Positions 21 to 33,767 of a DNA stretch of 64,000 nucleotides are shown piece after piece. Origin of the DNA: Candidatus Gastranaerophilales bacterium. GTDB lineage: Bacteria > Cyanobacteriota > Vampirovibrionia > Gastranaerophilales > Gastranaerophilaceae. The notes under the pieces were generated by a model, which was not told the DNA's origin, searched no databases, and saw nothing but the letters and a program-made list of their open reading frames with translations. The position numbers and the translations under genes were made by a program. The stretch spans positions 1 through 64,000 of the forward strand of contig JAFQOV010000016.1 in assembly GCA_017402995.1 (NCBI GenBank), read 5' to 3'. Each line of letters opens with the position of its first letter. The stretch's first letter is position 1.

Positions 21-337
21 AAACCTCGACTGTTTTATTCAGGAGTTAAGTTTTGAAGCGTTGTAAAGAAACAAAACAATTTAACCAAGCCCGAGGTTTC
101 TTTCTTTTCTCGTACTCTTTTCTTTCTTTTCATTTCGGCGTCTGAGAGAAAAAGAAAGAAAAGAGTACAAAAGCTAAAGTTTTTTAAGAAAAAACAAAAG
201 CTTTAGCTTTTTAAAAAATAAGACGAAAGCCCTTTAAAACTTCTCTAAAAAATCCCACTTTCTTCCTAAACAAAAAGAATAATGAAACTTTAAAAAATCT
301 AGGTCAAAATAAAGTATCATTTTAAAGGAGAAACAAG
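21..337. other. Non-coding leader region upstream of hsp20
   Basis: I see no credible coding sequence in this first stretch. It holds nested inverted repeats. Arms at 21-28 and 92-99 (AAACCTCG/CGAGGTTT) could close a domain that contains a GTTTTG/CAAAAC stem. A pyrimidine mirror repeat with a perfect 19-bp hairpin lies at 97-168. Another hairpin uses arms 169-179 and 201-211 (AAAAGCTAAAG/CTTTAGCTTTT) and ends in a T-run, so it could terminate a rightward transcript. The rest, to 320, is AT-rich with no clear motif. A ribosome site (AAAGGAG) for the heat-shock gene lies at about 324-330. Confidence 0.6.
97..168 (+). repeat. Homopyrimidine mirror repeat plus complementary purine arm (triplex-capable)
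   Basis: Positions 97-111 (TTTCTTTCTTTTCTC) are mirrored exactly, 15 of 15, by 115-129 (CTCTTTTCTTTCTTT) around GTA. The second pyrimidine tract, with GTA before it and one T after it, then pairs perfectly over 19 bp (112-130) with 150-168. Read in parallel orientation, the first tract also matches the purine arm 151-165 base for base in T.A-T and C+.G-C triplets. A mirror-symmetric pyrimidine/purine tract is the classic H-DNA motif, and the folded single strand could in principle form 15 base triplets. Function is unknown. No coding frame explains the pattern. Confidence 0.8.
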
Positions 338-33439: not shown

Positions 33440-33767
33440 TGCCCTCATTTTGCTCAGCGAGTGCGTCACACTGCGCTTCGCTTCATTCGGGTAAGGTTTC
33501 GCACTCGGCACCAGCTCTTCGCGGCTGCCGTCGTGCTCACACACCTTGTGCCCTCATTTTGCTCATTGGGCGCGTCGCGCCACAATTCGCTTCATTCGGG
33601 TGCAGTTTTCCGACTGTACGGTTGCGGCCCAGCCAAGGAATTTCACCTTGATTTCCTGCTATACTTGTTTAATAGTAGCAAAAATATTTTAAAAGGGCAA
33701 TTATGGTATGTCCGCCTGTGAAATCAAAGATTTCTTCGCTTCCTTTCGCGCTTCGCTTTGTTCGGGA
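33440..33767 (+). repeat. Dispersed hairpin-rich island, copy 3
   Basis: This copy lies between ilvD (3' end) and the 233-residue gene (5' end). Class A hairpins lie at 33456-33477 (AGCG-AGTGC, loop GTC) and 33565-33586 (ATTG-GGCGC, loop GTC, GCGCC-CAAT, nearly identical to 887-909). A class B-type hairpin with loop TCTTC lies at 33506-33530. The shared core TCCGCCTGTGAAATC recurs at 33711-33766, ending TTCGGG right before the ilvD stop. A stretch in the middle (about 33620-33700) is not shared with other copies and contains its own CCAAGG/CCTTG stem. Frames across it look non-coding. Confidence 0.84.

Follow-up and report, generated by a model that had tools for sequence, protein, structure and literature searches.

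A candidate triple-helix pseudoknot at the end of a dispersed, non-coding element in a Gastranaerophilales genome

A predicted pseudoknot motif at the start of the window

The stretch of DNA analysed here (the window, 64,000 nucleotides) opens with the first base of contig C14 (JAFQOV010000016.1) of a 1.7 Mb bacterial genome assembled in 26 contigs, and the host is placed in Candidatus Gastranaerophilales because the named relatives of the Hsp20-like protein encoded beside the feature of interest belong to that group. The feature, a pyrimidine mirror repeat followed by its complementary purine tract, lies between the contig end and the Hsp20-like heat-shock gene (positions 338–799; this gene and all parts of the feature described below are on the + strand). 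Judged by sequence comparison, it is the right-hand end of a putative mobile element, a context that was not seen in the original prediction, which had pointed to a possible triple helix.

The pyrimidine tract at positions 97–111 (TTTCTTTCTTTTCTC) is the exact mirror of positions 115–129 about a GTA centre (112–114), positions 112–130 are the exact reverse complement of 150–168, and the plain complement of 97–111 matches the purine arm in parallel orientation. These relations, from which the triple helix had been proposed, were all confirmed by sequence checks. The judgement that a chance match is improbable held as well, since neither a mirror of at least 15 nucleotides nor a pyrimidine hairpin of at least 15 bp arose in 20 dinucleotide-shuffled versions of the window. 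The real window contains no second case of the 15-nucleotide mirror/hairpin arrangement.

On its sequence the motif goes beyond a hairpin with a third strand and is predicted to form an H-type pseudoknot. The 5′ strand of stem 1 (GCCCGAGG, positions 89–96) pairs with TTTCGGC at positions 133–139 within the apical loop, in a register that is ambiguous here by one bulged base. The pyrimidine third strand (97–111) constitutes loop 1 and is followed by the linker GTA (112–114), which can alternatively pair with TAC at 166–168 in an extended hairpin. The 5′ pyrimidine arm of stem 2 occupies positions 112–130, with the triplet layers at 115–129, and is separated from the 3′ purine arm (150–168) by the apical loop, which includes loop 3 with its conserved NNTGA (140–149). 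The pairing 5′ of the third strand had been missed in the original prediction, as had the recurrence of the motif at 34 places in the genome and the truncation of the window copy.

The right part of the element spans positions 1–266, its left side being cut off by the contig end. Comparison with an intact copy (L017) identifies positions 1–60 as the loop and 3′ arm of a long hairpin (type B, see below), in which CCTCGACTG at positions 24–32 forms one side of a tandem G.A internal loop. Outside the pseudoknot, at positions 169–240, mini-hairpins of the AAAGCTTTAGCTTTTT type form a variable array. The right boundary of the element falls between position 168 and about position 267, where homology with the hsp20 leaders of relatives starts. 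The hsp20 gene lies downstream of the insertion and is not part of the element.

Three-strand covariation among copies and relatives

The same arrangement was sought in this genome and in its relatives with an anchor pattern comprising only AGCC, GGCGnnTGA and seven pyrimidines, with no mirror required. It recurs at 34 places in this genome and in 13 of the 28 genomes of the genus, with between none and 34 pattern matches per genome; the reversed pattern gave a single match. All distinct matches in the genus but one are mirrors, scoring 10–17 as compared with 3–8 for unrelated matches elsewhere. The copies share the layout AGCC-n-third strand-linker-pyrimidine arm-nGGCGnnTGA-purine arm, and because the AGCC segment next to the third strand on its 5′ side is complementary to nGGC in the apical loop (stem 1), the predicted fold is an H-type pseudoknot in which the pyrimidine tract, as loop 1, would occupy the stem 2 major groove. 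In two loci (L057 and L141) the apical loop of the pseudoknot contains pieces of other repeats.

Across the variants, loop 1 can be aligned with the stem 2 purine strand over 12–17 layers. The 31 distinct variants scored comprise 339 T.A-T, 76 C.G-C, 13 G.C-G, 4 G.T-A and 3 other triplets, so that 415 of the 435 cells are T.A-T or C.G-C, and in an earlier count over 25 arms C was matched with C 60 times with no discordant case. Third strands match their own stems at 0.99 and stems swapped between genomes at 0.68, a difference reached in none of 5000 permutations, the randomisations here ignoring kinship among the variants. When 48 distinct variants were compared as mirror and as direct repeats, the mirror was better in 46, equal in 2 and worse in none, with a slight lean towards the mirror in that the aligned lengths were set by the mirror match. 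Only 2.8% of shuffled arms score 12 or more, as against 92% of the observed ones. There are 30 different 12-nucleotide arms among the variants, and the positions of C vary widely while the register is kept in all three strands; the freely slipping simple repeat that the original prediction had named as the outcome to fear is thus not what is seen.

Two-sided changes occur at all 12 scored pairs of stem 2. The pseudoknot as a whole is 98.4% paired, with a covariation of 0.560 compared with 0.240 for shuffled and at most 0.199 for slid alignments; the stem-2 rows were selected for having the stem, which biases the paired percentage and leaves the two-sided changes unbiased. Stem 1 is seen as GCCG/CGGC, GCCC/GGGC, GCCT/AGGC and GCCA/TGGC, and in the G025 type as GGCG/CGCC, a flip of GGC and GCC; its fourth pair occurs as G-C, C-G, T-A, A-T and G.T. 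Pairing of the 5′ segment with its own apical loop averages −6.99 kcal/mol compared with −6.52 ± 0.14 kcal/mol for swapped loops (0 of 300 permutations), so that covariation and swap test both assign this segment to stem 1, by a modest margin. The wobble asymmetry at this fourth pair was estimated from the counts not to exceed base-frequency expectation and was not used.

This three-strand covariation over copies and species lends strong support to the parallel pyrimidine triple helix, and we infer that the helix forms in vivo. The case for a natural triple helix is usually made on one sequence; here the comparison of diverged copies, dozens of them and from many species, provides direct evidence for a three-strand code.

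The predicted fold resembles the pseudoknot of telomerase RNA, an H-type pseudoknot with a U.A-U/C+.G-C major-groove triple helix of a few layers. The order stem 1, loop 1, stem 2, stem 1′, loop 3, stem 2′ is the same, as is the parallel placement of a pyrimidine loop 1 along the purine strand of stem 2. In the element, on the other hand, the helix would have about 12–17 layers, the fold is read from sequence, and the setting is bacterial, with dozens of mobile copies and no telomerase context. Triple helices of the ENE (element for nuclear expression) type, found in MALAT1, PAN and transposable-element RNAs, are long U.A-U helices that clasp a poly(A) tail. They share with the element a long U.A-U helix, in some cases within transposable-element RNA, and differ in that the third strand of the element is local and its fold is a pseudoknot.

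Dispersal and anatomy of the element

A search with positions 60–230 of the window gave 16 main copies in this genome, nearly identical to one another. All but one lie at contig ends, always facing inwards, and the unassembled side is therefore the element itself. Intact copies are present inside contigs C4, C21 and C25, which shows that the element is not an assembly artefact. With the intact copy in C25 (positions 87929–88559) as query, matches were counted by us at 29 or more of the 52 contig ends, so that the repeat limits the assembly and explains why the genome breaks there.

The copy in C4 lies at a locus that we take, from the translations, to be that of pflA and a hook gene. The two start codons are 788 bp apart, about 650 bp of which is extra: all 23 syntenic relatives have 120–163 bp and no pseudoknot, and hence an empty site. 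For the copy in C25 the empty-site comparison fails because the neighbouring synteny is lost in relatives, and the relatives examined for the window copy have no pseudoknot directly upstream of hsp20. Absence from sister genomes, which the original prediction had set against itself, is therefore seen at the insertion site, whereas the arrangement as such is present in roughly half of the genomes searched within the genus, as well as in further genera of the same family. In being non-coding DNA inserted where relatives have an empty site (23 of 23 orthologous sites), the element resembles miniature inverted-repeat transposable elements (MITEs), and it is like MITEs with long terminal inverted repeats in being short, with inverted ends and lineage-specific insertions. 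It differs from them in that its ends keep structure and not sequence, and in that the hairpins on its left and right may be of different types. Ends resembling ATAAAACAATATATTTTAT are present in some copies.

Carriers belong to genera g1, g41, g37 and g45 of one family, and a search of 386 genomes from the phylum gave no true case outside this family, the listed matches being judged by mirror and arrangement. One contig of genus g39 (L167, genome G253) carries a pseudoknot identical to copies in G015, of another genus, which would reflect either horizontal transfer or contamination of the bin. IMG/VR contains 35 matches to the pattern, none with stem and mirror, and carriage by phages was rejected on this basis.

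The unit consists of a long imperfect hairpin followed downstream, on the same strand, by the pseudoknot. Hairpins of type A covary strongly, with two-sided changes at 14 of 28 pairs (0 of 500 shuffles), and are 97.1% paired, the covariation surrounding an invariant U.U mismatch and a tandem G.A (UGAA/UGAA); in type B hairpins the equivalent position reads GGAG/CGAC or UGAA/UGAA in the sequences. On the pseudoknot strand of type A, G.U wobbles are far commoner than A.C, and the hairpin folds better on this strand than on the opposite one in 16 of 16 copies. The usual element of about 650 bp, seen in several species, contains two units in inverted orientation, with the pseudoknots outward and 210–423 nucleotides between them, so that either strand, when single, would carry one unit in its correct fold. 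The hairpin type may differ between the two units of an element, and single units also exist (L057, L060 and genus g41). Neither a promoter-like nor a terminator-like site was found in the intact copy, in keeping with a non-autonomous element.

Proposed recognition of the fold and alternative accounts

We consider it probable that the window feature forms one of the arms of a mobile, non-autonomous element whose triple-helix pseudoknot is recognised in trans as a single strand. In this fold the bases 5′ of the third strand would pair with the apical loop to form stem 1, the loop 1 pyrimidines would run in parallel with the stem 2 purine strand in T.A-T and C+.G-C triplets, and loop 3, short and ending in TGA, would cross stem 1. 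Because the fold is kept as a structure on one defined strand within a mobile element, it is presumably a recognition structure acting in single-stranded form, and its most likely role would be to be recognised by an enzyme supplied in trans that mobilises the single-stranded element. The acting form would be either RNA from read-through transcription or single-stranded DNA, with RNA slightly favoured because of the frequent G.U pairs and the RNA-like internal loops. As a side effect or second role, the fold could provide read-through transcripts with a very stable, nuclease-resistant 3′ structure. More tentatively, the element may represent a new class of bacterial mobile element, in which a long triple-helix pseudoknot with three-strand covariation serves as the mobilisation signal, inverse duplication lets either strand yield structured RNA (or single-stranded DNA), and the fold possibly switches between hairpin and triplex. 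The element raises the testable question of how recognition of a triple helix would allow a bacterium to mobilise a repeat.

Several observations weigh against this account. Candidates for a mobilising enzyme (Y1 transposase, reverse transcriptase and TnpB) were checked and none fits, as detailed below. No target-site duplication was identified. Stem 1 is short, and about one quarter of the genome-unique cases are unpaired at the fourth pair in the simple register. The linker also pairs with the base of stem 2 (GTA/TAC in the window, GTTCA/TGAAC in other copies), so that a stem extended to its full length excludes a complete triple helix; the fold may have two states, or the triplex may be partial, and the molecule is predicted to be able to switch between extended hairpin and triple helix. 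The C+.G-C layers need protonation. With two C per tract, a mirror is not fully separable from a direct repeat, and the test depends on run lengths and ends. Finally, the shared ancestry of the copies makes the variants only partly independent.

A possible, if unlikely, alternative is a single-stranded DNA unit similar to repetitive extragenic palindromes (REP) and bacterial interspersed mosaic elements (BIME), moved by a Y1 (HUH) transposase, with the pseudoknot as a DNA fold recognised during replication. REP/BIME/REPIN sequences associated with TnpA-REP (RAYT) are likewise dispersed, intergenic, imperfect palindromes, non-autonomous and often in inverted pairs, and the ends of IS200/IS605 elements are likewise single-strand hairpins with strand-specific mismatches that act as recognition sites; base triples take part in guide recognition in these systems (PMC6006769). 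REP hairpins, however, measure 21–65 nucleotides and have a GT[AG]G foot (PMC6006769), whereas the units of the element exceed 150 nucleotides (about 650 bp overall), contain a pseudoknot and triple helix, and have the conserved AGCC...GGCGNNTGA instead of that foot. A Y1_Tnp gene is present in this genome and absent from the other 27 of the genus, many of which carry the element, and RAYT/Y1 was rejected as the mover for this reason and because the gene has hairpins of its own (see below). The genus has no Y1/TnpB pair of the IS200/IS605 kind apart from this one RAYT, and TnpB, with no match over the cut-off, does not track the element. Reverse transcriptase was likewise rejected, being present in 12 of 27 genomes and absent from several carriers.

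The lone RAYT-like gene (L089, 1390–2000, G000:C1) is flanked by GTAGACTTTAGTCTAC hairpins; these are separate, REP-like GTAG/CTAC hairpins and not the pseudoknots described here. The CTTTAG mini-hairpins beside pseudoknot elements resemble these flanking hairpins.

Less probable still is that the element works mainly as RNA, stabilising or terminating read-through transcripts at their 3′ ends in either orientation, much as triple-helix 3′ elements or REP stabilisers do, and was spread by an unrelated mechanism. A pseudoknot does end either strand, and the strand-specific G.U pairs and tandem G.A suit RNA. The copies nevertheless show no bias towards gene 3′ ends, adjoining genes running away from and towards the pseudoknot about equally (some loci were counted twice owing to two stem-1 registers, which leaves the balance unchanged). 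Moreover, one copy is flanked by genes transcribed divergently, and the intact copy lacks a terminator-like site. A riboswitch or leader role was rejected on the same lack of orientation bias. Rfam gave no match above the gathering score for the element, the weak sub-threshold matches to leader and microRNA models looking like noise from A/T-rich hairpins, and literature searches returned nothing on it.

It is improbable that there is no triple helix at all and that low-complexity pyrimidine tracts, alike by descent or slippage, merely adjoin an ordinary hairpin. The tracts are T-rich with few C, and shifted direct repeats match in part; against this stand the C positions that differ between variants and agree in three strands, the preference for mirror order in 46 of 48 variants and the rarity with which shuffled arms reach the observed score. 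Very improbable is a duplex H-DNA or DNA-topology element in which the mirror repeat alone matters: the near-perfect homopyrimidine mirror of every variant, the window copy included, would suit it, yet H-DNA needs neither the intrastrand stem with its purine arm nor the loop pairing nor the neighbouring hairpin with strand-specific mismatches, all kept by compensatory change. Between the structured RNA and the DNA-topology element that the original prediction had offered, a structured single-stranded nucleic acid therefore fits best and plain duplex H-DNA is disfavoured.

A different repeat with about 10 copies was noted in G042, from another family of the order (L085 and L086). It has a 21-bp pyrimidine/purine hairpin with a 4-nucleotide loop and a perfect 19-nucleotide mirror third strand, without stem-1 pairing, and is possibly an independent triplex hairpin. 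In the window itself, a second, GC-rich mosaic family of dispersed repeats, with 44 matches in the genome, lies at positions 885–1262 between hsp20 and a membrane pyrophosphatase gene. The only Rfam matches above the gathering score are to tRNA and to an AdoCbl-II (B12) riboswitch, the latter at positions 33595–33673 on the − strand.
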